Origin: Styela clava
Taxonomy: Eukaryota; Chordata; Ascidiacea; Stolidobranchia; Styelidae
Length of the DNA: 64,000 nt
NCBI RefSeq assembly: GCF_964204865.1
Contig: NC_135260.1
Span: 7,564,001 to 7,628,000 of the forward strand
Reading direction: 5' to 3'
Shown: positions 18,956 to 63,517 of the stretch, in pieces
Layout: every line of letters begins with the position of its first letter
How positions within the stretch are numbered: position 1 is the first letter of the stretch
Made by a program: the position numbers and the translations under genes
The notes under the pieces: model-generated
The model's input: the letters and a program-made list of their open reading frames with translations, nothing else
Databases searched by the model: none
Told to the model about the DNA's origin: nothing

Positions 18956-21536
18956 TTTAAATTACTGCTGGAAAAACGCAGTGCGATGTTCTATATTATG
19001 CTTGTTGCAATTACTGATAGCACAAAAAGCCTGAAATAGTGTTCGCAACTTACTCTATAGTTAAACAGCGGTCCAAATCTAAGTACAAGCTAATCAAGAA
19101 TGACGGAAAACCGTGATCCGCTTAGCGATATCTCGGTGAAATTAGTAAATGATTGAACGTCTGATGTCAGTATAGTCATACTTCAGTAATAACTAAGTTA
19201 AACAAAGGCGGAGAAACCTTCGTTATGCGTTTGTCGTGTTGCGATAGTAGGCCTAAAATAGCTGGATTGCGCCATAAGAAAGCATATCTTCCTTCGTAAA
19301 ACGTAGAAATACAGGCGCTGTTTGCGCCTCACTACACATCAAAACTACGCACCTAGTTTCCATGCCAGCACACGTAATTGATGCAAAGTTTGTTCGCTAA
19401 TGAACAGAAGATAAAATAGCGATATCAAACCAAAACAGTATCCAGAATATTATGGACCTAAATTTTCTTTAGATATTTTAATTTAATGAAGTCTATATCG
19501 TTTGCTGCTTCGCGTGAAGTTACCATCAAACATTGATCACAAGTAGTAATTACTTTAGTATATTTTACCGACTGCCTACGGGGAAAAGTCAAATAATTCT
19601 ACAAATAGCGTTGATTAGAATACTCTATGCCAGTGGTCGAGTATTCTTTGCCGGACCTTGTGCGTTTCTGGTTTAGATAATGTAGCGTAATATTTTCGTA
19701 ACGTAACGTAAGACACACGTTATACCGGACGTCATATGAAAATGAAACTTGATCACCTGATTTTTAACATCCTGCAGTTAAATATTGTGATAGATTAGCA
19801 AGTTAAATAAAAACGTGAGGTCAGGAATTAGGTTCGATAAGCTACAAAGTAGAGCGAATCTATAGTAGCAGCTAAGTTTGTCACTGAAACTTGACGCTCG
19901 ACAGTTTGAATATTGCAAATTATAATGAGTAGAAATTAAAATCTATTTTGAAACGGTTTAACACCATCTGCAGAATCTGACATCGGAACGATGGGCTTAT
20001 AACTGTAAAAAATAAAATGCTTTTAAGCGTCAATACCGCGACTGCAGAACAGACTACATTGTTCCATAATTCCAGGGTGGATGATTTTGCTGGCGACTGG
20101 TCGGTTCGCAACAATTTTCTGTTTTGAAATCAGTCCGCGGCACAGAGAAGGGTTGCGACCACTGCTTTGTGCAAAAGAATTCCACTTCACAAGGAAATTA
20201 AATCAAAGTTTTGCCATGAGAAACAATGTTGAATAATTTAATTCGTTCTTACGCATTACAAATTACCCAAATTATTAACAAAACGTCTACCTAAATAAAA
20301 GTAATTAATTGAATGTGTACGTAATAAGGATCAAACATTTTAAAACTGAAAATTTAAAAAAAATTGTATCAGTCACTGTACGTTTGAGCAAATTTCTTTT
20401 GTCTCTATTGGATTCGTTTTTGTGTGTGCGATGACGTCATCAAAAATTGCGCACCTTGTGGCGGTTCCGTTTCTACCCGAGTACCGCAGCATTTTTAATT
20501 AACTAGATTTTTTGGTCGACTACCAAGTTGATCGAATATCTTGTCGTTCGACTACTGAGGTCACACTGTATATTCTCTATCACTGAATTGTGAGTAGAGC
20601 AAAATAAAGACTATAGGCTCAAAATACTTTTGGAGCTCTGAGGCAATATATTTCAACACACATTATCCAAATCTTTAAATGTTATCTTCAAGTGTGTTTG
20701 TATATATATATATTTCTCCCACAATAATGATGTTATTTGAAGTTTTCCTAATGCTAGCATGGCAAACCTTATAGGGGCTAACTGGCTCATTAGCGCAAAT
20801 TTGAATATAAAATCACGTGACCTAGGTTTAGAATGTCGGTTGGGGTTTTATTTTGAAGTTTCTTCGATTACCTACCTGACAATACCAGATCAAGCTTGAT
20901 ACGACAATTGAAAGCCAAAAAATAACGGCTTTATGTGAACACGATGACGCACAACCTTACAATTTTCACAGGTTGTGTGACATCTTTTAGCACATTCTTC
21001 AGGAGTACCAAAATAACAAAAAAAATGTTCTCGCGTGATTCATGCTTATGTTATTGTTACATAAAATACAAAACTAATTTCTACGACTTCAAAAATAATG
21101 GACTTCGCGCCATACAACGACCTACTTTTGACATCTGGACGTGATAAAACGACGACACATGCTTTGCATGGACCGCATTACATCGTCTCAGCATGACGCT
21201 CTACCGATTGACATATATACGGCAAAAGGCACTATCTAGCGCGACTGACGGAAATGTGGCTCTATGCCGTGAATGCCCTTACATGATTCATGTTCGTTCT
21301 ATTGTTGCATGAACATGGAAACTAATTCTCTATGACCTCAAAATAAACAATGGCCTACATATGACATCAGAAAGTGATGAAGCGAAGACATTACACTCAG
21401 CAAGACACTATTGATTGACGACACATTTAGCTTTAGTAAAACAGCGGGTGCTCATCTCGTAAAAAGCAGAGCATTGTTTACGAGTCAAGATAAAATGATG
21501 AGAAACTTATAACAAAGTATTACATTACTTGCAACG
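18956..21536. other. Intergenic in duplicated unit 2
   Basis: Duplicate of 8872-11452. Same content: FABP-B upstream region and a SINE-like repeat near 20374-20584; no gene. Confidence 0.45.
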
Positions 21537-24503
21537 ATGACGACTAGACGATTTTTCGATTCAATTGAAGCTTTGAGACGCTTAGACGAAATAGAGGATG
21601 ACGATGAAGTCATTGGTGAAATGGAAAGTTCAGGCGACGAAGTCGATGTATTAGAGGCACAATCTGAGAGCGAATATGAGGAGAGCTCAGATTCAGACGT
21701 ACCCGGCCCTTCGAATGCGCCAGCCCGCAATGTTCGTGGTTCGCAGAGAAGCCGTCGAAGAAGAGCAGTGGCAGGTCGACAGCGAGGAAGAACGAGAACC
21801 ACAACCCCATCAGGTCCACAACTAAACTGGCAGAAGGTGGTAAATCCCCGTGTGATGCGTCCATTTTCCGAGAGAATAGGGGTACAAAAACGATTTCCCC
21901 CCCCCCACACTACAAGTTTGGATGTCTTTTCACAATTTATTACCGCAAATGTTATCGCACTAATTGTCGAGATGACAAATCTCAATGCCGAGCGGAAGAT
22001 TGCAGCTTCTGGAGGCAGCCAGACGTGGAAACCGACGACCGCGGAAGAAGTGAAAGCATTCCTTGGCCTAATTATTATCATGGGCCTAATAAGAATGCCA
22101 CAATTGACCATGTACTGGCAGAAGAAGAACTGGATTTTCGACTGGCCCACACCAAACAAAATAATACCAAGAGATCGCTTCAAACTTTTATGGAAATACC
22201 TTCACTTCTGTGATGAATCCAAATCCCCATCGCCGCAGGACCCACTAAGACAGGGGTCGGGAACCTTTTTGGTCAAGAGAGCCATAAAATATACATATTT
22301 TCAATTGCATTTCCGTGCGAGCCATATAACATTTCTTCACTTAATCAGGCCTGAAATGTTTACTCAAAAGTCAACACATACAATGTCAATATACATTTAA
22401 TGTGATTTCTGATGCTGCATGTAGTCGCTGCGGGCCTTGAACGGTTGCTCACTTGCAGCCCAAGTTGAAATCTACGGTATGTTTACTGTTATTTACAAAT
22501 ACTATGACCGTTTTTTTTCTCGTCATATTTTATCCCCCTTATTGCAAGTTTTATACACGTATAATAGGATACCGTACCGGTATTGTTTGCAATATATTAT
22601 TCGCTGTAACTTAATCAGAGTGGTAATTTTCACTCTTTTCATTTGTATATAAGTTTTCAAAATTGTACTTGTTAGAAATATTTTGTGCAATTTGCATTCT
22701 CTCTAAGTTTTCCTTTATTTTTTCTTGTTGTCCTCTCATTTTCTCTCTTCAGTGCATTCTCTCGTGATAGTTATACATTTATTTTGTTAAATAATCTGCA
22801 CAGTAGCCTCAATTATGTATACTGCCGCAACTACTGGTATTCAGTAGTTGTGTCTTATTTAGTTACTTTTTTATACTAACCTGCATCAGCTAGGTGTCGC
22901 TGCTTGAAGACCTTTATAGGTCCCTCGCGACTCCAGTCACACAATTAACATGATCAGTATATTTCATTTATTGTAACAGTTTTCTATATGCTTGTTTTTT
23001 GTGTTGACAAATAAAAGATTGATTGATTGATACGGTACTCATCACCCTTTTTCGTTTAGGCATCTCCGTAGTGTTTTTAAAACTCTATCGCTTTGTGATG
23101 TCACAATATATGTTTCCAGAATCCCCTTGTTTGTCACAATGCCTGTCTGTCATAATCTTTCGTAACATAGACATCTGCTGGGCGCGCGTTCTCAAACGTA
23201 TTGGGAATTTCCTGCCAAAATTGGCTATAAAAGTGTTTGAAATCTCGTAACAATAGTAAGCTTAGTCTTAGAATATTAGATTTTTCTGGGAGCCATATGC
23301 CGTCACCAAAAGAGCCATATATGGCTCGCGAGCCATGGGTTCCCGACCCCTGCACTAAGAGATAGACTCTATAAGATTCGACCACTTCTTGAACTTGTGG
23401 AACCCACGTTCCTTTCAGTTTATACCCCAGACAAATATATAGCAATTGATGAATCAATGATACCATTCAAAGGTAGAATAAGCTTTCGGCAATTTATACC
23501 CTCAAAACGTGTTAGATTTGGAATAAAAGTCTGGGTTTTGGCAGAATCGAAAACAGGGTATGTTTCCAAATTCCAAATTTATACTGGCAAGGATCCACGA
23601 GTTCAAGAAGTGGGATTAGCATCTAGGGTGGTATACGATCTAATTGATCCGTTCCTAGATAAGGGTTACCACCTATACGTAGATAACTTTTATACGTCAA
23701 CAGAACTTTTTAGAAAGTTATACGAAAACAATGTTTATGCATGTGGTACAATGCGCTTGGGAAGAAAAAACTTTCCAAGCGAAGTTGTACTTACAAAAAG
23801 AACTCATAGAAGAGGTGACAGTGAATGGACAATGGCCCACGAGCTTCTCTGTCAATCGTGGCTTGACAACAGGCCGGTATATTTTTTATCAACAATTCAC
23901 AAGCCTGATTACGAGCCAGATGTTCCAATGGAACTCAGAACTGTGAAAAGAAGGGGTGGGCGTGGCATGCCATCGCAAGACATGCCATGTCCACCTCTTC
24001 TACATGATTATAATAATTATATGGGCGGGGTGGATTTCAATGACGCTATGCGAAAGTACTATAACATTGGAAGACGTTCCAAAACATGGTACAGACGTAT
24101 TTTTTTTTACCTAATCGAAGTAGCGTTACATAACAGTATCGTGGTGGCGAAGGCTATTTTGCCTGAAAATGAAAGGAAAAAATTCGTGCCATTAGAATGG
24201 CGAAAAGATTTGGTCACGAAATTGTTGGGTGATTTCAGGACCGTTCGCGTGCCACCACGTCGCTCTAGTGAACAACGTGAACTAAGACTTCAAAATGTAG
24301 GGCTTTATTTGCCGTCATTTCAAAATGCCTTGCGAATCTGCAAGGTTTGCTCTGTGAAAGAATCCCATAAGCAGAGAAGGGGTGGCCCTAAATATGTTAC
24401 GAGATCGCGCGTAATTTGTCGAGAATGTGGCGTACATCTTTGTGTAGCTCGCGGAAAAGATTGCTTTACGCAATGGCACACAAAGAAAGAATTTTGGCGA
24501 TAA
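21537..24503 (+). pseudogene. piggyBac-type transposase, interrupted by a hAT element (copy 2)
   Basis: Coding parts 21537-22250 and 23361-24503. Translations match copy 1 in full, including the three catalytic-type aspartate motifs and the C-terminal cysteine-rich domain. Interrupted at the same base by the same hAT element, so the copy arose by duplication of the whole block, not by a second transposition. Confidence 0.9.
22251..23352. mobile_element. Non-autonomous hAT element inside piggyBac (copy 2)
   Basis: Same CAGGGGTCGGGAACC inverted ends and the same CACTAAGA duplications (22243-22250 and 23353-23360) as copy 1. Confidence 0.93.
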
Positions 24504-34500: not shown

Positions 34501-34783
34501 GACTTTATTACCATTCAGTCGTTCGCAAGGTATTCCAATATATTATTAGCCTTAGTCAAAAATAGGTTGGTATTTCTGGCTGTACAGCAATAATAAGTAA
34601 AATTATTTGCTTTTGCCATAATTAATTGAAACAGGAAATATCATTCTTTACGAAAGGTACGAAAGGAGCAATAAGTTATTACCTATTGCCTTACATTGTG
34701 TCAAATATGTCAAACGAAGTCTGAGTGTGCTTGGTTGCACTGCTTGCAAATTTCAAAGAAATTTAGTTGCATCAAGTTGTAGA

Positions 34784-36166
34784 ATGTCTGACAGCGAAAG
34801 CCTCCGACTATTATTCAACACCCCGTACATTCTCACGCCCAAAAGATGGTGGATTTTAATCATCGTCAGTTCGATTTTATTTTTGGATAGCTTCAGTGCT
34901 TCATTTTTCGGATTCATCAACGATGTTACCTCGGAGTATTTCGAAACAACCCCAGCAGCAACCGACTTTTTGTCAACTGTAAATATGTTGTCAAGGAGCG
35001 TTTTCGGGTTCGTTTTAGCAATGGGTGGAGAACAATTTAATTTTCGATCACTTGCACTTGCTGCAACTGGCACTATAGTAGCCGGTGATTTGCTTATTAC
35101 AGCCGGCGTGTCTTCTAGAAGAAACATGGTGATTGTTGGTATGGGACAAATTATGAATGGATTTGGTGCCACAATAACATTGACATTATCTCAAATGGCT
35201 CCCAGCAATTGGTTTCCTGAAAACGAGCGTGGAAGAGCTGTGGCACTACCGTGGATATTACGTCGATTATCACCGGTGATATCAAACATTGTCGCAACGC
35301 GAACAATACGACAAGGTTATGATAGCATTGATAATGTTAACACAACGACGAGGTATTTTGACAACAATGATTTGATGACAAATTTTAGAACATCTTTCCA
35401 AATCTCATATCTTGTGCTTACTGGAATAGCGCTGGTCGGATTTGTATTAGCACAATTGTATGTTACTGACTACCCGCCTCGCGCAGATGGACAAAAAATG
35501 CCACCACGTGCAAACAACTATACGTGGAGACCACTTACAGAGATCAAAGGGATTTTTAGTTTATTCGCCAACGGCCAGTATGTACTTTTATTGTTTATGT
35601 TCGTTTTGCAACTTTCACTTAGACCAATGGTTGAATGGATGCTTTCATCTATAATAATTGTGGCTTTTCCAGAACTCGATGATGGTACTGCAGGCATGGT
35701 ATTTATAGTGTCCTATGTTGTAGGTGCATTCGGGTCACCCACGGGTGGCTTCATTCTTGATAAGTTCCGTAGACCTAAAGTCACTCTTGTGTTTGGACAA
35801 TGTGCTGCTATCGTTTCATGTTGCATGTTTTCGCTTGGTGTGTATCTAGGAAGCTTTCCCTTGGTTTTTGTAAGTGACGTTTTGTCTGCGTTTTTCAGGG
35901 ATCTTTGTTTTGTTTGCATATCACATTCTTTGATTGAAACCATGTATAACGAGCCGGCAGACACAAAAGTCCGCGCATTCAGTATTTCTGGTTCTGTGCC
36001 GTGGTTTTCCCTAGCGCTTTACACTGGCATTGTCCGGTATGTATTGCAACACGGTGGAGCGGCTTTAAGTGTATTGATTCCCATACCTTTTCATGTAATA
36101 GCTGGAATATTGTACATACTCTATTATAAGGTACCACAGAAGAATAATGAAAATGATTTCAATTGA
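34784..36166 (+). CDS. Major facilitator superfamily transporter A (460 aa, intronless)
   Basis: The reading frame is open from 34727, but the first ATG, and the one matching the paralogue at 43611, is at 34784, giving 460 residues. About 12 hydrophobic segments start with TM1 near residues 22-45. The loop between helices 8 and 9 (about 321-332) carries GGFILDKFRRPK, an MFS motif-A variant; NWFPENERGRA lies at about 142-152. MFS proteins move small solutes across membranes by rocker-switch movement. I cannot assign a substrate or subfamily (SLC49-like and SLC17-like were considered and not decided). It pairs with a 460-aa paralogue in opposite orientation at 42229-43611 and has two truncated relatives nearby. 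Lack of introns suggests a retrocopy origin or ancestral intron loss. Confidence 0.85.
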   Translation: MSDSESLRLLFNTPYILTPKRWWILIIVSSILFLDSFSASFFGFINDVTSEYFETTPAATDFLSTVNMLSRSVFGFVLAMGGEQFNFRSLALAATGTIVAGDLLITAGVSSRRNMVIVGMGQIMNGFGATITLTLSQMAPSNWFPENERGRAVALPWILRRLSPVISNIVATRTIRQGYDSIDNVNTTTRYFDNNDLMTNFRTSFQISYLVLTGIALVGFVLAQLYVTDYPPRADGQKMPPRANNYTWRPLTEIKGIFSLFANGQYVLLLFMFVLQLSLRPMVEWMLSSIIIVAFPELDDGTAGMVFIVSYVVGAFGSPTGGFILDKFRRPKVTLVFGQCAAIVSCCMFSLGVYLGSFPLVFVSDVLSAFFRDLCFVCISHSLIETMYNEPADTKVRAFSISGSVPWFSLALYTGIVRYVLQHGGAALSVLIPIPFHVIAGILYILYYKVPQKNNENDFN

Positions 36167-38725: not shown

Positions 38726-39117
38726 CTTTTTGAGAATAAGTTTGCGTACCCCCCTGACAATGCCTGTGATTTTTATGACTGCTTTTTGAGAATAACTTTG
38801 CGTACCCCCCTGAAAATGCCTGTGATTTTTATGATTCCTTTTTGAGAATAAGTTTGCGTACCCCCCTGACAATGCCTGTGATTTTTATGACTGCTTTTTG
38901 AGAATAACTTTGCGTACCCCCCTGAAAATGCCTGTGATTTTTATGATTCCTTTTTGAGAATAAGTTTGCGTACCCCCCTGACAATGCCTGTGATTTTTAT
39001 GACTGCTTTTTGAGAATGAGTTTGCGTACCCCCCTGACAATGCCTGTGATTTTTATGACTGCTTTTTGAGAATAACTTTGCGTACCCCCCTGATAATGCC
39101 TGTTGCTTTTGTTTACC
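38726..39117. repeat. Minisatellite, 7 units of 56 bp
   Basis: TGAGAATAA starts at 38731, 38787, 38843, 38899 and 38955, a variant TGAGAATGA at 39011, and TGAGAATAA again at 39067: exact 56-base spacing. Each unit contains TTTGCGTACCCCCCTGA and ATGCCTGTGATTTTTATGA (last unit diverges). Units alternate (AATAAG with ATGACTGC, then AATAAC with ATGATTCC), making a 112-base higher-order period over the first units. Fifty-six is not a multiple of three, so the long minus-strand frames through it are not coding. Confidence 0.93.
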
Positions 39118-42228: not shown

Positions 42229-43611
42229 TCAATTGGAATCTTCGTCATTATTTTTTCCCGGTATTTTGTAAAAAAATATGTACAATACCCCGGCTATAAC
42301 GTGAAAAGGTATTGGTATCAAAACGCTGAGGCCCGCGCCACCGTTTTGCAAAACATACCGGACAAAAGCTGTGTAAAGCGCTAAAGAAAACCATGGAACA
42401 GAGCCAGAAATGCTGAATGCACGAACCTTTGTGTCTGCTGGCTCGTTATACATCGTTTCAATCAAGGAATGAGATATGCAAACAAAACAAAAATCTCTGA
42501 AAAATGCTGTTCCCACATCACTTATAAAAACCAGCACAAAACTTTGTAGGTAAACACCAAGTGAAAACAAGCCGCACCAAATAATAACAGCGCATTGACC
42601 AAACACAAGAGTGACTTTAGGTCTCCTAAATTTATCAAGTACAAATCCACCCGTGGGTGATCCAAATGCACCTATAACGTAAGATACAATAAATACAATG
42701 CCTGCAGTGCTGTCATCGAGTTCTGGGAAAGCGTCTAAAATTATGGATGAAAGCATCCACTCATTCATTGGTCTAACTGAAAGCTGCAAAACGTACATGA
42801 ACAATAAAAGAACATACTGGCCATTGGCGAATAAACTCAAAATTCCTCTAAGCTCCGTAAGTGGTCTCCATCCGTAGGTATTTGTTCCTGGAGACGCTTT
42901 TTTCCCATCTGCGCGAGGCGGGTAGTCTGTAACATACATTTGTGATAATACAAATGCGACAAGCGCTATTCCAGTAAGCGCTATGTACGAGATCTGAAAA
43001 GATGTTCTAAAATTTTTCAATAATTCATCGCTCTCAAAATACGCGGATGTTGCGTTAGCACTACCAACGTTAGCATAACCTTGTCGTATGGTCCGCGTTG
43101 CAACAATGTTGGATGCCACGGGAGATAATCGGCGTAATATCCACGGTAGTGCCACAGCTCTTCCACGCTCATTTTCGGGAAACCAGTTGCTGGGAGCCAT
43201 TTGAGATAAGGTCAACGTCATTGTGGCACCAAATCCATTCATTATTTGTCCCATGCCAACAATCACCATGTTTCTTCTAGAAGATACACCGGCTGTAATA
43301 AGCAAATCACCGGCGACTATAGTACCGGTTGTAGCAAGTGCGAGTGATCGAAAATTTAACTGCTCTCCGCCCATTGCTAGAACAAAGCCGAAAACACTTC
43401 TTGCTATCATATTTATAGTTGACAAAACGTCCGTCGCTGCTGGGGTTGTTTCAAAATACTCCGAAGCAATATCGTTGATGAATCCGAAAAATGAAGCACT
43501 GAAGGTATCCAGAAATAAAATCGAACTTACGATCATTAAAATTCCCCATCTTTTGGGCGTGAGAATGTACGGGGTATTAGTCAGCAGTTGCTGGCTTTCG
43601 CTTCTAGACAT
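42229..43611 (-). CDS. Major facilitator superfamily transporter B (460 aa, intronless)
   Basis: Same length as MFS-A and closely similar along its whole length. It begins MSRSESQQLL (ATG at 43611; the frame extends upstream from a GTG but MFS-A supports this start). Seen: ILTPKRWGILMIVSS, NWFPENERGRAV, the motif-A-like GGFVLDKFRRPK, and the EPADTKVRAFSISG segment shared with MFS-A. Divergence is concentrated in the loop near residues 178-200 and at the C-terminal end. Encoded on the opposite strand 6 kb from MFS-A, with a fragment of the family between them. Substrate unknown; membrane location inferred from about 12 hydrophobic segments. Confidence 0.85.
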   Translation of the reverse strand: MSRSESQQLLTNTPYILTPKRWGILMIVSSILFLDTFSASFFGFINDIASEYFETTPAATDVLSTINMIARSVFGFVLAMGGEQLNFRSLALATTGTIVAGDLLITAGVSSRRNMVIVGMGQIMNGFGATMTLTLSQMAPSNWFPENERGRAVALPWILRRLSPVASNIVATRTIRQGYANVGSANATSAYFESDELLKNFRTSFQISYIALTGIALVAFVLSQMYVTDYPPRADGKKASPGTNTYGWRPLTELRGILSLFANGQYVLLLFMYVLQLSVRPMNEWMLSSIILDAFPELDDSTAGIVFIVSYVIGAFGSPTGGFVLDKFRRPKVTLVFGQCAVIIWCGLFSLGVYLQSFVLVFISDVGTAFFRDFCFVCISHSLIETMYNEPADTKVRAFSISGSVPWFSLALYTAFVRYVLQNGGAGLSVLIPIPFHVIAGVLYIFFYKIPGKNNDEDSN

Positions 43612-44780
43612 TCTACAACTTGACACAAACTAAATATCTTTCAAAATTTTAAGCAGTTGCTTCTTCCACGGCCACAGTTTGTTTGAAGTCAGTCAGACAT
43701 ATAACACCACAAGAAGCAGATCAATCGTCATGCTTATTTCCGTCTTCGTACCTGAGCAACAGGCAGTTTCCTGCTTCGATAGCAATTAAAATGCGAGCAT
43801 ACACTTCCAGTGAGTAACGTTGTTTCACTTTTTCACGGGGTTCCCAGGCTGTATGAAGTTTTGTTGTGAGACGACCTCGTCTGTAATTCTGTTTTATTTT
43901 GTATGTCCATTCTCATTAATACCACTTGAGTTGCCATTGAGCAACTTCCTTTTTAGCTGGTTTGTCAGACTGCCGGCAGTGTGGAAGTTCCTGTGTGATT
44001 TGCGTATCTCTATTGTATTTAGTACTGTATTTTTATTGTTTATTGTGTTTTTCATTTGAATATTTGGTTGTATTAAGTTCTTACATGTGTATAATTAATA
44101 TATGTAAATTAAGTTAGTTATTCTGCTGCAGTTGAAACCGCAACCGCTACCAATACTGGTACGCCACATTTACGGAAAATTGGCGACACGCCAGGATATA
44201 TTATTCGACACAGGGATTATCAAGACTAAGTCGAATGAATAGGTAGGCTGGTCTGTGACGGATATTATTTGGACAATATCGGATATTAAGATTGTCGAAA
44301 TTTTTTTTTCAAATTGCGGTTGCCTGATATTTCGGAATACGAAAGAGAATACGAAATTAGACTCGTCAGTTTATCATATTAACGACACACTGCGAGATAT
44401 TTCTGGCATGATGAAATCTGGTGAAGTTTATGATCCTGATGAAACCAAGCCCATGTGTCAGCCTGATTACTTCAACACTAGCAATGGTTGTCCTTGAAGC
44501 ACTGCCTGTTCTGATGATTTGAAATATCCGATTTTAGATCTGAAGATGGACAGTCAGAAGGAAAGCCTAACGCACTCTCGCAGACAATAGAAGTAAAATT
44601 TTCGGAGGAAGGTGATGTGAGTTCCCTTTCTTAGTTATAATGGTAAAATTAGATATTGATTTCAGTGGCTACACAATCTGTTCCCTCAGTGAGTGCTAAC
44701 AGTGCCCCAAAGGACAATGTTAGCAGCAGTGTTCTCAATAACACAGCCAATGCTACGATGATGTCAAGAAAGTCAATGTA
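43612..44780. other. Intergenic, MFS-B 5' flank
   Basis: Contains the presumed MFS-B promoter (first about 200 bases). An 80-codon open frame at 44255-44497 begins at a non-ATG codon and has no recognisable family. It may be retroelement debris. Confidence 0.35.
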
Positions 44781-49772: not shown

Positions 49773-50692
49773 AGATATCTTTGAAGTTTCTCATCCTAAC
49801 ATCCTTGAGAACCACGTAAATTAGTGATCTTGACATGGTTTTTCGTCGCAATATTTAATTAGACTTGAATGACTTCAAATGACGTCACGAGAGGTCAAAA
49901 GGTCAAGAAAATAAGAGCTCAGGTGAATATACGAGCGACTAACAGTCTTTCCCTACGGATACAAAAGTGGCAATCTGTACTGGATTCGAGTAGATATTAC
50001 CCAATAAATTGTAATCAAATCAAGAATGTCGATGCAATGCATTTTACTGCCACAATACAAACGAATACAAATAAATGAATAATTGGATTTTTACAGTAAT
50101 GAAACATTAAAACGAACGAAAATATAACGCAATGTAAAAAAAAACTTTTTGCATTGGCAAAACAAACAAGTCGAGTTATCCAATAAGTTTATCACAAAAT
50201 CAACATGTACCGAATGCGTTCTGGCATTCGTTATTACCACTCGAGAAGCTACTATGACAAGCACAGAATGAAACAGCAGGGCTTTCCTAAGCTGCGACAA
50301 GGGCATCGTTTTGTCCCGCACGCTTTTGCGCATGAGATCGATAGGTATTCAGGAATCGGATTATTGCCTCTAACTGGGATCAAAAGATCTTCATCGAGTT
50401 CAAAGCCAAACTCTCTGGAGTCAAGAGTAACCTGAGATGACGTTATGGACATCATCTGATGCGTTGCAATATGCGCTCTGCTGATATGCATTCTAATAGC
50501 GTGACTTGTGGGGGGTAGAGTTTCCAACGATGCTTGCTTCGAATGATGACATTTGTAGCTTCGAAGCTTATCCATTGTTTTCAAGCTGAATCCTTTCTTA
50601 AGAACATGAGTTAGATAGGCTTCTGCCTTATCTATAACTTTCTCCAGACCATTACTCAGCACATGAAAATCTTTAAAATATGCCGCTGTCGA

Positions 50693-50730
50693 GGAGAATA
50701 ACATTCAGGATAGATTGAATGTTATTCTCC
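50693..50730. repeat. Perfect 15-bp hairpin at the internal deletion
   Basis: GGAGAATAACATTCA at 50693-50707 and its exact reverse complement at 50716-50730, with an 8-base loop, lying exactly between the two C-terminal open stretches. Confidence 0.9.
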
Positions 50731-52200
50731 ACGAATAAAGTCCATGCTTTAAGCGACCCGGATTTTCTTTTGATAAATCCATTCTACACAGGTGCCATGC
50801 TATTTCTTTTGATTTTACGTCATTGAACATATCGTGATCTAGCGTATGAAACGTGGTAGTCGGCAGAGAGAGATGTTTTTTTTGTAGGCTTATAAAATTC
50901 TCTCAGCGATTGGCACTTCAGATCAAATGCAAAGGTGCGGGATCCATGTTTAACACTAGTGTTCGACCGAAATGGTTTTCGACCAATCTCCTCCCCGTCA
51001 TCCTGAAACATAACTGACACAGTGTCACGACTTCCACCTAGTCCGGAGAGATTCGCTTCATCATGGTCGAAGTTATCAAAAGCAGCTACTGTAAACATTG
51101 ATTTGTCAAAGTTGCTCGGAAAAGGGACTTTGTCTGAGCTACACTCAACAATGAATGAAGCCATGTCGTTTTGGTGACGCATAAGCTTATCATAACTGCT
51201 ACACAAGCCAAATCGATTGAAGCTAGTTATAAGGGTTGCACTTTTACAAGCATCATATATGGATTGGCTATTCATAATATGGAGGGGAGTTCTTCGTCTA
51301 CCACGATGTAAATCATAATACATAACATGGAACAGACAATGCATTTGTCTGAATCGATACTCCGAAATGCCTCTGTTATCATCACTTGGCCTACCATCTT
51401 CATCATCTAGAAATTGGGGACCTGCAGAAAACTCTGCTGCATTAAAATTAAATATAGTAGCCAAGAATGTAAGTAGTGGTTCGGGAACTTGTACGGCTTC
51501 CCACGCCGTTTTCAGGACATTTGCGTCACAGAATCTGTAGACCAAAGTCTACTTCTAACAACGACTGTCTGATCATTCGCGCACACTTCCGAATAGGATC
51601 ACTTGACCAGATAATTTCTGCCATGTCCTCAGTTTTAACTTCTTTGCTAAAGATTAATTCTGACTTGTTCATTTGCCTTGGCCTTGTGAAGCTGACGCTA
51701 TTGCCAAAGTGGTTTAGTAGGAGAATTTTCACCTCTGTGTTATTAATACAACCTTCGGCATAATAGCTGTTCATTTGATCCCCAACATAGCTTAGTTCGT
51801 ATTCTTCGCCATTTTCAAAACCTCTTTCAATGTCGGTAACAACTTTTTTCCATGCTCCCTTCTTCCAGTTACTCTCTTTATGAACAATTTACTGTCTACG
51901 ACTCGCTTATATTCAATAAGATACCTATTGATGCACTGTTTATGGCAGTATAAATCTGCACCAAAAACTGCATGTATGTCTTGCAAATCACAAGTTCTGG
52001 TATAAACGTCATCCTGATTAAATACTGTGGCCCGAAGAAATTTCATTGCTCGATTCAACTCGGATATTTGATATTTTTCATAAACAACTTGATTTTTAAC
52101 ATACCCGCACACAACGCAGTTTTTCTCATAAATGGCTCTGTTGAAACTTGGCCTGGGCCGTGGTAGACTACCTGAACGTGGAGAACGGTTCTGATAACTC

Positions 52201-52380
52201 TCTCCGTCGCGTAGATCAGCTGATGTGCTTTTCAAAATCCTTTCAAGATGAGATTTCATCGTGTATGCTTTGTAGCTTGATAGACAAATTTCTCCGTCTC
52301 GTAGATTAGCTGATGTGCTTTTTAAAATCCTTTCAAGATGAGATTTCATCGTGTATGCTTTGTAGCATATGATAGACAAA
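52201..52380 (-). repeat. In-frame 90-bp tandem duplication
   Basis: TCTCCGTC(G/T)CGTAGAT starts at 52201 and 52291. The unit of 90 bases encodes 30 residues (YKAYTMKSHLERILKSTSA) twice in the N-terminal ORF. Confidence 0.9.
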
Positions 52381-52804
52381 TTTACTCTGACCAACAACTT
52401 TCAGTCGCTTGCTTACAACGTCATCTCTAATTAATCCTGCATTTCATACCCGTTTACGGCCAATTTCGGTTCCTACTATTTTCTCAGTAGAAGTCTCTTG
52501 GCGGATTATACATTTTGAATCATATACTAGGACGGTCTGGTCAACAACTCCTGTAGACAGATACACGGGGTTCCTGCTGGTCGCTATGTTTTCCCTAACT
52601 GAAGTCAAAAAACAGTCGCCAGAAAAATGTGCATATTACAAAGTTAAATGGAATCGCGTTGGAATTTCGTGACCTTTTGACCCCTGGTAACCTCAGTTGA
52701 ACTCGTATCACCCCCAAAAAATAATTGGAATGAAATAGCATGCCAAGGAGAATAATTTGTGAAATGTGCAAGATTGTTAGAAAAAAAAAAACTACTAAGA
52801 TAAT

Positions 52805-55072: not shown

Positions 55073-56008
55073 TATCAATTATTTTATCGTCCTTCATGAT
55101 GATTATGGGGTAATAATAAAGGCATATTCACAAATATTCACAGTAAGCTTTGTAAATTCATAGGTTGGCAATATTACTGGTCCTTGCATAAGATGTTTTC
55201 TCAAATATTACCAAACCTAAAAATGTACCTCAGGATGCCCTAAGAAAAGTGGAAAGATACTAATACAACAACAACTATAATGCAATTTTCTTGCTCCTTT
55301 TTTCTAGTTGACAAAAAAAAAACTAGACACATGGCAGAGAGTCACAAGATGTCAACATTGAGTAAAGTTCTGGTTGTCGTTATATTTGCATGTCAACGGT
55401 ACCGCAACTGACCATGGCATGTGTGTGTTTACCGTAGTACCGTACTGTAGTATATGTACGGTAACTTAGGTTTATTTCCATCACTGCTTGTTTTCATAAC
55501 AAAAGTAAGCATACCGGTACCACAACAATATCACTCAATGTATCAATTATTTTATCGTCCTTTATGATGATTATGGAGTAATAACAAAGGCATATTCACA
55601 AATATTTACAGTAAGCTTTGTAAATTCATAGGTTGGCAATATTACTGGTCCTTGCATAAGATGTTTTCTCAAATAATACCAAACCTAAAAATGTACCTCA
55701 GGATGCCCTAAGAAAAGTGGAAAGATACTAATACAACAACAACTATAATGCAATTTTCTTGCTCCTTTTTTCTAGTTGACAAAAAAAAACTAGGCACATG
55801 GCGGAGAGTCACAAGATGTCAACATTGAGTAAAGTTCTGGTTGTCGTTATATTTGCATGTCAACGGTACCGCAACTGACCATGGCAGGTGTGTGTTTACC
55901 GTAGTACCGTACTGTAGTATATGTACGGTAACTTAGGTTTATTTTCATCACTGCTTGTTTTCATGACAAAAGTAAGCATACCGGTACCACAACAATATCA
56001 CTCAATGT
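55073..56008. repeat. Tandem duplication of 468 bp (two copies)
   Basis: Copy 1 is 55073-55540 and copy 2 is 55541-56008, starting at TATCAATTATTTTATCGTCC; they differ at only a few positions. Both end in a stretch rich in GGTACCG, TACGGTA and ACCGTAGTACCG words. No coding sequence. Confidence 0.92.
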
Positions 56009-56327
56009 AGCCGAACTCATACCACAGTACCGCCACCGGTAGTACAAAATCGGTTCAAAATGCTACTGGTAATGTCAGATTGTTCTAAAGTCATATAGCT
56101 GTATAGGCTATTACCGGTACGGTTTAAAGTGCTAATGTCAGATTGTTAAGTTCCAAAGTTACATATCACCATATTATGATATTGCAATAATAGTGACGAT
56201 GTTCGCTTACGGTATCTTGCAAGTGAAAACAGTATTGCATGTATCAAAATCAACACGAAAAAGAAACTCATAGCCTACTTATCAAGCAATAATGAAAACT
56301 CATCAATTACCGTACCTTACTGTAGGT
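56009..56327. other. Intergenic, GGTACCG-rich
   Basis: Further CCGGTA / ACCGGT words; no gene. Confidence 0.4.
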
Positions 56328-56759
56328 CAGGCCTACTCAACTGACGGACCACCTCGAACCTTTTGGGTATTCGATTCGGACCGCGACTAATTCTTATTTT
56401 GGATCATCAGTCCCACTTTTGAAGTTTCCTTTTATTAAATCACTTTTATAGATTTGAATATATATGAAAAGAACTATAACGCCATAATAAACAATCTTGA
56501 TTAACTAATAATCATTAGCCAGCCAAGGAAGCGCATGTTTAAGGATGCTGAAATATAATTTCTGAAAAGACCGGAATGGGCAATTCCAGCGTTACTTTCG
56601 TTACATCTGTGCAAATTTTAAACTGACTTGGCCAAAAGCCTATTACAAGCATTCAAGTCATAGTGTTTGTAGTTGTATATGGCCCTGGGCTTGTAACATA
56701 GGCACCATAAAAATGGCTCTACTATGGACTACTTTCACATAGACGAGTCGCGAAGCGTC

Positions 56760-56984
56760 GTTACTTGCGTTACAGAAAAAGGACACTAGTTTTTTGGACA
56801 AAACTTTGACATGCTCCCCATCTCAAGATAATACCACTAACTAACTACTTTTTCCCATGTCCGAAGAGATTATATTTCAGATGTAAAATCACAAAAAATT
56901 ATGTGAAAAACTTTCATTTGAATATTAAAATTTTCATAAGGAACAAAAAATGGTCCGTTACTTGCGTTACGTTACTTACGTTAC
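56760..56984. promoter_or_regulatory. Cluster of 14-bp motif, 3' side of the 687-aa ORF (3 sites)
   Basis: GTTACTTGCGTTAC at 56760-56773 and 56957-56970, and GTTACTTACGTTAC at 56971-56984. The same motif in the same orientation recurs on the other side of the ORF. Subterminal binding sites for the encoded protein are a reasonable inference. Confidence 0.7.
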
Positions 56985-57370
56985 AATCATGGTCCAATTT
57001 TTAGTTTATTGCCAAGTTTGACATTTAGTCAATATTTAACATTTAATTTCTTTAAATTTCTATGTTTAAATTATAAATCCATAATTAGAAGATAAATTCT
57101 GAAAATAAAATAGTGTTTTAAGAACAAACTAGCAATATAGAACTATTTGCTTGGCAAAGAACAATAACATGAAAAATAAAACAAAAAATGAATGAAACTA
57201 ACAAACAGTCAAAGGTAATGCATTTGATATTTTTACTATAGCAGGGTTTATTTTTATTTATATTGCCAGAAAGAGGTATATGCTAAACATTTCAGTTCTT
57301 TTACGTGTAGTAACATTATAACAAAATATATTATGTTAAATGAAATTGCAGACAATGTAAAAAAATCGAA

Positions 57371-59434
57371 TTAATGTAGAATAGCTTTTACTCTATGCTC
57401 GAGTTCACTGAAGTTCGCAATAACATAGTGCCCTCTATTGTTGATTGGAATCGGCTTCTCCAGTTGTTCAACTATGTCTGTGTTCATATAGAAAATGGAA
57501 TCTTGGGTAATTGGCCATTTCCAGTTCTTACCAGCCCTCTCCATTACCGAGACCTTGAATTCGTTCTTCTGTATACAAGTAACTTCACCTGGGTATAAAT
57601 TTCCTTCGTAGCGAACAGCTACCCAATCTCCTATTTTTACACTAGAGCCTTGCGTACTTCTTTCAGCTGCATCCACATTAATATCTCCTGTTAAAAATGA
57701 TGTGAGGAGTTGACCATTTTTAACCTCCATGTGGTGAATTTTGCTTATACCATGAACAGACGAGGCTTCAGCAAAAATTTTTTCTAAATCCAGTTTATAG
57801 CTTATCTCTTTAATTTGCTCACGCGTAATTTCCATGCATTTTATATTTTGTATTGCCATGGTAGCTTCTGTAAAAGATTTTGCATCAATGACATGATGTT
57901 TTCTGCATCGGACTTGATTCCATACATATCTTTTAACTGAACCACCGATACCATCGACTGGACCTTTACCGTGCGATGTAGCAAAAAAATTCCAGGATAT
58001 TGATATATTGTGCACACTTTCCAAGGCCGGCAAAGACGCTAAAATATATTTGTTTTTGAATTGGGAGCTGGGACCATCTGACCAAATTTTGACAGATTTG
58101 ATAAAACTAGGTAATGTGGACAAAATTTTGCTCAGAATTGGAATTACTGCTTCTTTTGAGTGACAAAGATAATCTGACACCACTGCCATTGAATGAATTT
58201 TTCCCCCATACCACGCTGCAGCTGTAAAAATACTAATTTGCTGTTGCTGCCAATGTGCACTCTGTATCTCATCTTGGTTAACGCAAGTATAATTTTCAGC
58301 AAAATCAATTTGAATTAATGCTTCACTATTACTGTACGATGCCGAAGTTGATAAAGTATTATCTCGATCTAACTTGTAACGCATAGACTGCTGCCTTTTA
58401 ATATACGAGTGTTCCAAAAACTGCGGTAACATTTGATATACATGCTCCAGAAGATCATTTACATCACCCTCCTCCTGAACCTTTTTCAATCTAGAATCAC
58501 TGACACTATTCTCCCACACATACCAGCTCACAAACTTATTTTCAAAACCTTCCAGTACTGCACCCCAACTCATTTTAAATCCTGCACCATCCTTGCATCG
58601 CATACATTCATTTTTCCAGCATTCTAAATTTGGACTAGCACAGACAAATGTGTTTACAATATTTGTGGTATACGATGGAAATTCCGGAATCACTTTATGC
58701 AAAGAATTAATTGCACAAATAAAATTCTCATGATATTTGCAAAGGCAAACATTATGAGGCAATCTGGAACTTAAAAACACATTTTTTGGTCTAAGTTCTG
58801 CAAACTTACTTCGTCCTATTTTTAAATGCGGGAATTCATCACGAAAAAGTTGATATACTTCTGCGATGCTAGATGTTAAATGACGTGTTTGTAGCCTTTC
58901 TGTAAACCCATCTTTTTTTATTGATATCACATCCTTTTTTCCAGGTGCTTGCCGGCTGATATCGTCTCGCCTATAAAAATCTGCAACAGCATTAACTGTA
59001 GATTCTAATATACCGGTACGACGTTTTCTATCAGTTGATGGATTGCCCTGTTGTTCTTTATCCAAAATTTCCCAATATAGTTTTCGAACTACTGCCTTTT
59101 GTCTATTTGGAGTACTAGGCAGTGCAGTACGCATCATTCGCTTTGCCCTTGCAGAAGCCTTTGCAAATGCCAAAGCACTCTTGAATGGAGCATGGTTTTC
59201 TTTGGCCTGCTTTTTCATCAACCTGTGTTTGGCAACACGCATCTTTACTGCATTTCTTCGCTTTTGCTTAATCATATTTTGCTCTTTCACAGATAAATTA
59301 TTTTCCTTGTTTCGTGACTTTTCTCTACTTCTCCGTACATATTCTTTCTGTTTTAACTTAAATTCTCCTATTTTCCCTTCTGCCTTTTGTCTCTCCCTGA
59401 ACCGCTTCTGTCGCTCTGCTGCAGTCAAAGGCAT
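57371..59434 (-). CDS. Uncharacterised 687-aa transposase-like protein
   Basis: Single open frame, ATG at 59434, stop at 57371, no interruption. Residues 1-120 are extremely Lys/Arg-rich (RQKRFRERQKAEGK), a likely DNA-binding and nuclear-targeting region. Residues 228-280 hold a Cys/His cluster (CLCKYH, C240, C265, C272, CMRC), a probable zinc site. A core of IQIDFAENYT (D377), KIWSDGPSSQFKNKY (D453) and SHGKGPVDGIGG (H488, D494) has the spacing of an RNase H-like catalytic core; the acidic triad is inferred. Residues 598-656 (KIGDWVAVRYEGNLYPGEV) look like a Tudor/SH3-type barrel. I recall similar proteins from many animal genomes as uncharacterised, but cannot name a family. Seven copies of a 14-base motif flank the ORF, which points to a mobile element. 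Confidence 0.75.
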   Translation of the reverse strand: MPLTAAERQKRFRERQKAEGKIGEFKLKQKEYVRRSREKSRNKENNLSVKEQNMIKQKRRNAVKMRVAKHRLMKKQAKENHAPFKSALAFAKASARAKRMMRTALPSTPNRQKAVVRKLYWEILDKEQQGNPSTDRKRRTGILESTVNAVADFYRRDDISRQAPGKKDVISIKKDGFTERLQTRHLTSSIAEVYQLFRDEFPHLKIGRSKFAELRPKNVFLSSRLPHNVCLCKYHENFICAINSLHKVIPEFPSYTTNIVNTFVCASPNLECWKNECMRCKDGAGFKMSWGAVLEGFENKFVSWYVWENSVSDSRLKKVQEEGDVNDLLEHVYQMLPQFLEHSYIKRQQSMRYKLDRDNTLSTSASYSNSEALIQIDFAENYTCVNQDEIQSAHWQQQQISIFTAAAWYGGKIHSMAVVSDYLCHSKEAVIPILSKILSTLPSFIKSVKIWSDGPSSQFKNKYILASLPALESVHNISISWNFFATSHGKGPVDGIGGSVKRYVWNQVRCRKHHVIDAKSFTEATMAIQNIKCMEITREQIKEISYKLDLEKIFAEASSVHGISKIHHMEVKNGQLLTSFLTGDINVDAAERSTQGSSVKIGDWVAVRYEGNLYPGEVTCIQKNEFKVSVMERAGKNWKWPITQDSIFYMNTDIVEQLEKPIPINNRGHYVIANFSELEHRVKAILH

Positions 59435-59846
59435 TTTTTCGGTACTGGTACTTTTTGACTAACTCCCAACAGCTGAATCTAGATTCTAGACTATATAATT
59501 TACTGCAATAAATGGGATAAAAACATCTAAAATAGCCAAAAAGTGCAGGGTAATGTACCTGGTAATGGTCTTTGTGTACCGGTAAGGTTTCCACCACCAC
59601 AATATACAAATAATATCTACAATTTAGGGTTGCCAGATATCATGCATTTTATTGTGGCCAGTGGCAACCTATTTCTTCTAACTTGTTTAAGTGATGTGCC
59701 AAAAATTAGGTATTCTCTGAAATTAACTATAAGGAAATATATAAATAATAATTCAAAATAAACTATCTATTTATAACTTATGTTAAAACCATAATTTTCC
59801 ATATATTATATCTTTTTGATTACTAGAGTCTGATTTATAAGATTTT

Positions 59847-60061
59847 GTTACTTACGTTACAATTGTTACTTGCGTTACATTGTTACTTGCGTTACAAAAT
59901 TTGACATTGAATATTAATTAATATATACAATCATAGTAAGTTAAAATGCACACATATTGGCTGTGTGTGTGTACATAGGATGATGGTATATTGGCAAAAA
60001 ATGAATTTCAGTATTTTTTTACAAACCGTAAAAAATGTCGAAAAAACGTTACTTGCGTTAC
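59847..60061. promoter_or_regulatory. Cluster of 14-bp motif, 5' side of the 687-aa ORF (4 sites)
   Basis: GTTACTTACGTTAC at 59847-59860, GTTACTTGCGTTAC at 59865-59878, 59882-59895 and 60048-60061. All are in the same orientation as the three sites at 56760-56984. They lie 400-630 bases upstream of the start codon, so a role in promoter control is also possible. Confidence 0.7.
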
Positions 60062-60508
60062 CAAAAAATCGATATCAGTAAATTGCTCCCACAGATACCA
60101 AGGGGCAGTATTATACAAAACTGAATGTATCCTGAGAATGGTGATAGCCCTCTAGTATAGCAAATAATTCATGTTCATTTGTGTTTGAATTATTTAGGTT
60201 AAAACTTAAGTTTTGTGCCAATGGCTCAAAAAGCTAGAAATTGAGGTCAATGCCCCACCTACTTTCAACAAGCTTCATTTTTTTTATTATCGAATATAGT
60301 TGTGAAATAAATTAAGTTAACAAAACTCCAAGATATATTTCATGATAATATGGGTTGTTTCTTTGGGATTGGACACTTTTATTTTTTTCAAGTTTGTCCC
60401 TAGTTCCGTGGAATTGCCCGAATGAGTTAATTTCTGGAAAGACCCCAATATTTTTGAATTTTGTATGCGGATCTTCGATAAAAATAGTTGAGTAGCCCTG
60501 CCGTAGAT

Positions 60509-63067: not shown

Positions 63068-63517
63068 ATGACTAGTGCTCCACAGCAGATAAATTTGGCA
63101 GCATTGCCAACACACGAACTAAAACATCTTGTTGAGCAAATGCAGCAAGAAGTTGACATATTAAGTAACAGTCTTCAATCACTGAAATCTGCACAATCCC
63201 AGTTTGCAGAATCTAAATCATGTTTGGAGCTTTTGCAGAAATCTGAAAAAGGTAAAGAAATTTTGGTGCCGATGTCCGGTTGTCTCTATGTCCCAGGAAA
63301 TCTCAATGAAACAGAAAATGTCATGGTTGATATTGGAACAGGATATTATGTTGAAAAGAAAACAAAAGATGCTGAAGAATATTTTAATAGAAAAGTTGAT
63401 TACTTGAAGCGACAAATGGAGTCTTTGCAAACTATTTTGCAGCAAAAATTTCAAAATAAGCAAATGGTTACAGAAGTTCTTCAAACAAAACTCATACAAC
63501 AATCGCAGCAAAAATAA
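63068..63517 (+). CDS. PFDN5: Prefoldin subunit 5 (149 aa, complete, intronless)
   Basis: One open frame of 149 residues, the usual length of this subunit. It starts MTSAPQQINLAALP and has two heptad-type helices at each end (HLVEQMQQEVDILSNSLQSL and RQMESLQTILQQKFQNKQ) around a beta hairpin with ILVPMSGCLYVPG and MVDIGTGYYVEKK. This coiled coil-hairpin-coiled coil plan is the alpha-class prefoldin fold. Six subunits assemble into a jellyfish-like cytosolic co-chaperone that delivers unfolded actin and tubulin to the CCT chaperonin. No intron is visible in the coding part. The ATG is the first in frame after a polypyrimidine/AT tract ending AG, so trans-splicing is possible. Poly(A)-type AATAAA words follow within 350 bases. 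Confidence 0.95.
   Translation: MTSAPQQINLAALPTHELKHLVEQMQQEVDILSNSLQSLKSAQSQFAESKSCLELLQKSEKGKEILVPMSGCLYVPGNLNETENVMVDIGTGYYVEKKTKDAEEYFNRKVDYLKRQMESLQTILQQKFQNKQMVTEVLQTKLIQQSQQK

Follow-up and report, generated by a model that had tools for sequence, protein, structure and literature searches.

We describe an element of 3842 bp that occupies positions 56578-60419 of a 64,000-nucleotide stretch of the Styela clava genome (contig C14, i.e., NC_135260.1 of assembly GCF_964204865.1; the whole stretch is referred to as the window hereafter). Our results indicate, with a probability that we put at about 90%, that this element is an autonomous cut-and-paste DNA transposon whose putative DDD transposase, a protein of 687 amino acids (aa), is predicted to bind eight copies of a 14-bp motif close to the element ends. 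We favor this reading because of the element ends, the 4-bp target duplications, the near-identical copies elsewhere in the genome, the derivatives that lack the open reading frame (ORF), and the target repeat that the window copy has interrupted. An earlier note, made from the window sequence, had proposed a DNA transposon with subterminal repeats, and this proposal is borne out by near-identical copies at unrelated sites, two of the three with 4-bp duplications, and by ORF-less derivatives.

Ends, genomic copies and the interrupted target

A scan of the window for inverted repeats with flanking duplications recovered GGGCAATTCCA as a perfect terminal inverted repeat of 11 bp, abutted on both sides by GAAT; with up to one mismatch allowed, GGGCAATTCCA has two matches only in the window, 56578-56588 and 60409-60419, and the element termini are GG..CC. 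A sliding control with the same geometry scored ≥15 at one of 102 other placements in the window (16 bp, without duplication) and thus, from the window alone, the ends were suggestive; they were settled by the genome copies, since the similarity of these copies stops at the ends predicted from the window. Specifically, a translated search of the 376.6-Mb host assembly found three open, full-length copies, on C14 (the window copy), C5 and C18, together with decayed copies and one divergent relative, and the DNA similarity to the window element covers positions 1-3842 on C5 and 4-3842 on C18, with none beyond. The limits implied by the earlier note, running from the first to the last 14-mer, accordingly give way to 56578 and 60419, and the 14-mers are ruled out as element ends by the extent of the full-length copies.

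The window copy differs from the C5 copy by 4 substitutions and from the C18 copy by 21, and the three copies reside at unrelated sites, with nothing outside the element in common. Because these near-identical copies all have open ORFs, it is likely that the element has been active recently. An exact 4-bp duplication was present at five of the six copies with both ends recognizable, that is, GAAT (C14), TGTA (C5), ATTA (C8), TGTT (C17) and AACT (C4). The ends of the latter four copies were taken from the alignment, independently of the duplication, and the 4-bp repeat alone is visible in their flanks; the probability of a chance 4-mer match between flanks is about 0.005. This count sets aside loci with one or no end recognized or looked for (L035/L071, L036/L004/L047/L072, L038/L061, L039/L043/L062, L041/L049/L056/L068, L057/L067, L052/L069, L053/L070, and the fragments L006, L007, L009, L011, L027, L029 and L030) as well as the fragment matches L028, L040, L042, L051, L058, L060 and L063 and search rows without a locus. 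The C8 (1701 bp) and C17 (1638 bp) copies are without the ORF and keep both ends and the 14-mers, in the manner of non-autonomous derivatives, each repeating part of one end region; in the C4 copy (1281 bp), both ends are preserved and the subterminal stretches have diverged. Motif-bearing copies with and without the ORF, for which the earlier note had suggested a search, are both present, and in place of a single-copy ORF without motif-flanked relatives, which that note had named as speaking against a transposon, there are three full-length copies and motif-bearing derivatives.

Alternatively, the ORF might be a domesticated host gene and the 14-mers its regulatory sites, a hypothesis that could draw on the intact ORF and on key residues being conserved between two sources (below). 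However, there are three near-identical copies, each at a locus unrelated to the others, and target duplications flank two of these; the 14-mers are kept in the ORF-less copies as well. Further, the ORF differences among copies (nonsynonymous/synonymous: 3/0 for C14 vs. C5, 7/2 for C14 vs. C18, and 10/2 for C5 vs. C18) show no sign of host constraint, although the counts are small. We consider domestication highly improbable.

Once joined, the sequences on either side of the window copy make up a single repeat of ~327 bp, bounded by hAT-type ends, CAGGSCTACTCAACT, and by an 8-bp duplication that is worn, i.e., a miniature inverted-repeat transposable element (MITE) whose outer inverted repeat spans 15 bp with one mismatch. 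A search of the genome for this MITE gave 1180 candidate places, 40 of which were scored, and reported 41 matches. One of these is the left MITE part of the window itself, and each of the other 40 that were reported crosses the junction without an insert, 39 of them at 78-83% identity and a weak one at 63%. It could be argued that the element is instead the autonomous partner of this MITE, with the outer CAGGSCTACTCAACT repeats as its true ends, given that the 15-bp inverted repeat and an 8-bp duplication matching at 6 of 8 positions enclose it. The other full-length copies, however, have no similarity whatsoever outside 56578-60419, and the outer repeat is a separate MITE, uninterrupted in the 40 matches mentioned above; the copy limits and the uninterrupted matches refute the outer repeats as element ends and leave the partnership with next to no probability. 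A 22-bp direct repeat (86%; 56556-56577 and 60428-60449) flanks the insertion and is single in two aligned MITE copies.

Subterminal sites in the element and its relatives

The 14-mer GTTACTTRCGTTAC is found in seven exact copies within the element, every one on the plus strand, as the earlier note had observed; an additional copy with one mismatch (56591-56604, also plus strand) had been missed, and the count is eight, four per end. At ≤2 mismatches, the window contains 10 matches, 8 of them inside the element, vs. a chance expectation of 0.81 per window (100 shuffles of the window, maximum 3). Measured in the coding direction from the nearer element end, the four 5' sites of the window copy are at 358, 524, 541 and 559 bp and its four 3' sites at 13, 182, 379 and 393 bp. 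The C5 copy has 3' sites at 190, 387 and 401 bp, the window copy being 8 bp shorter there, and the family range of 3' distances is 13, 182-190, 379-387 and 393-401 bp. Genome-wide, there are 38 exact 14-mers in the 376.6 Mb (12 for the reversed-pattern control), and 36 of these fall within copies of the window element, in one orientation per copy; the remaining two are on C19, where no element surrounds them.

A distant relative, L073, was found by searching an alignment of the catalytic region of two proteins against a prokaryote collection, as one of 143 pattern-matching stretches. L073 is a contig of 4 kb that bears the label 'MAG: bacterium isolate Cli_8', with a GC content of 35% and eukaryote-like content, and is probably mis-binned host DNA, i.e., a whole eukaryote-type transposon filed under a bacterial metagenome-assembled genome (MAG). 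It carries a 690-aa ORF that is 34% identical to the window protein over its whole length, and its terminal repeats are the same 11 bp as those of the window element. It also carries eight copies of another word, the 13-mer GTAYGTCCAACAC, seven in the coding direction and one inverted (chance level of 0.09, with a maximum of 1, in 200 simple base shuffles). Measured likewise, these sites are at 364, 519, 541 and 555 bp (5') and at 13, 182, 370 and 391 bp (3'). Summed over all eight sites, the offset from the window copy is 26 bp, which was reached by none of 200,000 uniform placements.

A second family resides in the host genome itself. L005, on C17, encodes a 792-aa protein that aligns with the window protein at 28% over 552 aa, and the element around it (L064) is 5015 bp long; its ends are GGCCAATTCC, its inverted arms are long, and TATA is the duplicated sequence. 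A second C17 copy (L065) has the right end in common with L064, and its left end was not found. The genome-wide list places no exact 14-mer in the L005/L064 element. Within this element (L064:2376-7390), the left arm repeats the right end in inverted orientation, and the repeated sequence takes in parts of the 3' portion of the ORF.

It is possible that the subterminal sites bind a host factor, not the transposase. The single orientation of the sites would fit such a factor, since the sites of a symmetric transposase would be expected to be inverted between the two ends, and so would a site spacing near 170-200 bp, which approximates the nucleosome repeat. Yet the site word differs between the window element and L073 while the positions stay, and the L005/L064 family of the same genome is without the exact 14-mer, which together suggest recognition by each element's own protein. 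That argument is not decisive, as the hosts of the window element and L073 differ as well, but we view binding of a host factor as unlikely.

These results also allow the tentative hypothesis, which we would hold at odds well below even, that a lineage known from two or more distant sources sets its ends by a fixed register of eight same-orientation sites instead of by mirror-image ends, the word drifting with the enzyme and the distances being held. If so, the transpososome would be asymmetric and polar, with each family addressed by its own short word, and the Tudor-like tail of the protein (below), exchanged between unrelated transposases, would be a module for chromatin targeting. Since the sites all point the same way at set distances, the two element ends are not mirror images of each other, and a conserved site register makes directly testable how a transposase distinguishes such ends. 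With their different site words arranged in a single layout, the two related elements represent, in effect, a natural swap experiment for DNA recognition, and the three near-identical copies with open ORFs make the mechanism testable with natural sequence.

The putative transposase and its classification

The 687-aa ORF between the two motif groups is indeed uninterrupted and open (57371-59434, minus strand), and other protein features that the earlier note had listed hold up as well. Specifically, D377, D453 and D494 are exactly where that note had placed them and, together with H488, are invariant in an alignment of the window, L005 and L073 proteins; seven residues of the Cys/His cluster (C230, C232, H235, C265, C272, C277 and C280) are invariant in the same alignment; and the N-terminus is basic, with a net charge of +10 in aa 1-50 and +14 in aa 51-100. 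All three proteins have the same A485-T-S-H488 between the second and the third acidic residue. PMC8230255 places the first D of DDE/D transposases on a strand, the second after the next core strand and the third before a helix, and the hydrophobic pattern of the 687-aa protein, judged by eye, is compatible with this order. Based on these sequence features, we infer a putative RNase H-like core around D377, D453 and D494.

Pfam scans of the window protein, of its pieces and of L005 returned no convincing family, and the L073 protein gave two sub-threshold matches only (E-values of 0.042 and 0.13). NCBIfam gave one weak C-terminal match (E-value 0.0096, 15 bits vs. a cut-off of 201) and a second scan none. 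Sequence searches of the PDB gave no convincing match; the best (E-value 0.17) paired aa 176-321 of L005, a segment that is not part of the catalytic region, with 4py5, a chain that carries the name Ribonuclease, and the rest had unrelated names. Viral contigs and phages, searched for relatives, yielded nothing usable, and neither did a single-protein search of prokaryote genomes. A literature search with peptide words from the protein found no matching paper, and the 14-mer was absent from the matches listed by another such search; we make no claim that the family is unpublished. Similar uncharacterized proteins are presumably common in fish and cnidarian gene sets.

With respect to classification, the features of the element fit the Sola superfamily, whose founding paper is reportedly that of Bao et al. 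(2009). In PMC10741241, Sola elements are described as having a DDD transposase, 4-bp duplications, a length of mostly 2-9 kb and terminal repeats of 11-1124 bp, and as occurring in bacteria and metazoans, and the features of the window element and of L064 agree with this description. That is, we observed a 4-bp duplication at five of six two-ended copies, plus TATA at L064 (and none at L073); three D invariant in three proteins, in a putative DDD transposase; an element of 3842 bp with 11-bp repeats and a relative whose inverted arms are long (5015 bp in total); and a metazoan distribution. It thus appears somewhat probable that the window element is a new family of Sola and that an array of subterminal sites such as its own is usual for Sola, by a comparison of described features, and this assignment differs from our best explanation in filing only. 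Should the Sola homology be true, the element would be less new, and the site register would be the remaining surprise. The 'unclassified superfamily' of the earlier note is, by the same comparison of descriptions, not supported. A founding member of a superfamily absent from Repbase would be consistent with three divergent members that have no convincing Pfam, NCBIfam or PDB match; however, known transposase superfamilies may also have no Pfam model, and the feature-level match to Sola speaks against a separate superfamily, which we regard as doubtful.

Several other groups were rejected. Kolobok, described in PMC9587614 as having TTAA duplications, purine-starting termini and a zinc-finger-bearing DDD/E transposase with a C/DxxH signature, resembles the window element in its 4-bp duplications, purine-starting termini and Cys/His module, but none of the five duplications of the window family is TTAA, and C/DxxH is absent between the second and third acidic residue, where the three proteins have ATSH; these two differences rule it out. 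The piggyBac group is ruled out because the duplications are not TTAA and the window protein has no PF13843, a domain that the window's own piggyBac ORF does match, i.e., the Pfam search works. The hAT transposases (e.g., Ac and Hermes) bind subterminal repeats near the ends, and the window element has such repeats near its ends as well. However, hAT duplications are usually 8 bp, or 5-7 bp in some groups (PMC12730594), whereas all five copies with a duplication here have 4 bp, which rules out hAT, and there is no Pfam match. Dada, as described in PMC3706591, is DDE-type, found in animals and other eukaryotes, with zinc modules and 6-7 bp duplications in small-RNA genes, its U6 and U1 groups being without terminal inverted repeats; the window element shares a putative zinc module but differs in its 4-bp duplication and in the MITE target of the window copy, and these exclude Dada. 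Finally, IS481EU has TG..CA termini (PMC10045372) and is ruled out by the GG..CC termini of the window element.

The Tudor/SH3-like tail of the window protein recurs on a pogo-type DDE_1 transposase of the same genome (L012; Pfam PF03184), at 43% identity over 76 aa; only the tail aligns significantly between the two proteins, and the catalytic domain differs. Such a tail was found at 15 places (L012-L026, on C2, C3, C4, C6, C8, C9, C13, C17 and C19), L012 alone having been examined. Judging from these alignments, this C-terminal stretch is a conserved module, and its presence on two different transposases points to a reusable one. Six tail matches on C6 form a head-to-tail array with a spacing of 2937 bp.

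Under the transposon reading, the 687-aa protein would be a DDD transposase with an RNase H-like core and D377, D453 and D494 as its catalytic residues, and its basic N-terminus and/or zinc module would recognize the eight 14-mers, four per end. The bound protein would then pair the element ends and cut at GGGCAATTCCA, and staggered joining would create the 4-bp duplication. With sites in one orientation at fixed distances, polarity would be built into the protein-DNA complex. Self-repression of the gene by its protein is a further possibility, via the 5' sites upstream of the ORF, and the Tudor-like module may tether the enzyme to chromatin.

Several observations weigh against parts of this picture. 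To begin with, no profile or sequence search (Pfam, NCBIfam, PDB) ties the protein to a known transposase. Among the copies, the left end of the one on C18 is damaged; this copy is without a duplication and keeps 7 of the 8 sites if up to 2 mismatches are allowed, and the C4 copy has no 14-mer at ≤2 mismatches. The junction of the window MITE has ~21 extra bp, partly a second copy of a 17-bp stretch, which are absent from both MITE copies that were aligned base by base; the window MITE copy may already have contained a small duplication when the element inserted. No comparable array was found in the two end regions of L005/L064 by a search for repeats, and L073, with both ends present, has no 4-bp duplication (AAAT vs. 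TTCT). Further, uniform placement was the null of the site-position test, and the window copy is closer to the L073 site distances than the C5 copy is (190, 387 and 401 bp).

Features of the element and its surroundings

The features of the element and of the MITE that it entered are listed in Table 1.

Table 1. Coordinates (window positions) of the transposon, its sites and coding features, and the interrupted MITE.
Feature	Position	Strand	Remark
MITE 8-bp duplication, left, CTGTAGGT	56320-56327		
MITE left part, entered by the element	56328-56577	+	left terminal repeat 56328-56342
Target site duplication GAAT, left	56574-56577	+	identical to 60420-60423; other copies have other 4-mers
Terminal inverted repeat GGGCAATTCCA, left	56578-56588	+	element 3' end in coding sense; similarity of C5 copy starts here
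14-mer copy 1, GTTACTTTCGTTAC	56591-56604	+	1 mismatch; 13 bp from element end
14-mer copy 2	56760-56773	+	
14-mer copy 3	56957-56970	+	
14-mer copy 4	56971-56984	+	
Possible polyadenylation signal AATAAA	57247-57252	-	downstream of ORF; read from sequence
687-aa ORF, putative DDD transposase	57371-59434	-	single uninterrupted frame; open in all three full-length copies
Tudor/SH3-like C-terminal module, aa 598-676	57407-57643	-	recurs on pogo-type transposase, same genome
Putative catalytic region, aa 370-510, with TSHGK	57905-58327	-	three D invariant in three proteins
D494 codon	57953-57955	-	codon checked
D453 codon	58076-58078	-	codon checked
D377 codon	58304-58306	-	codon checked
Putative zinc-binding Cys/His module, aa 227-280	58595-58756	-	seven residues invariant in three proteins
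Basic N-terminal region, aa 1-130, candidate DNA-binding part	59045-59434	-	from net charge; putative function
14-mer copy 5	59847-59860	+	
14-mer copy 6	59865-59878	+	
14-mer copy 7	59882-59895	+	
14-mer copy 8	60048-60061	+	
Terminal inverted repeat GGGCAATTCCA, right	60409-60419	-	element 5' end in coding sense
Target site duplication GAAT, right	60420-60423	+	
MITE right part	60424-60500	+	right terminal repeat 60486-60500
MITE 8-bp duplication, right, CCGTAGAT	60501-60508		6 of 8 positions like the left one

Immediately relevant to the neighborhood of the MITE, a tandem duplication of 467-468 bp, 98% identical, lies to its left (55073-56009). Farther away, two copies of a piggyBac-type element (11401-14419 and 21485-24503) are found 10,084 bp apart with the same ORF translations (PF13843 in 13313-14419), which suggests a ~10-kb tandem duplication or an assembly artefact. 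Three minus-strand ORFs at 50252-52397 resemble a multi-exon transposon gene in decay; none has a Pfam match above the cut-off, and CheR_N was matched once below it. The window also contains two similar MFS transporter genes on opposite strands (34727-36166 and 42229-43626), a prefoldin subunit in a single ORF that is presumably a host gene (63068-63517; PF02996), and a 56-bp tandem repeat of 6.8 copies (38726-39103).

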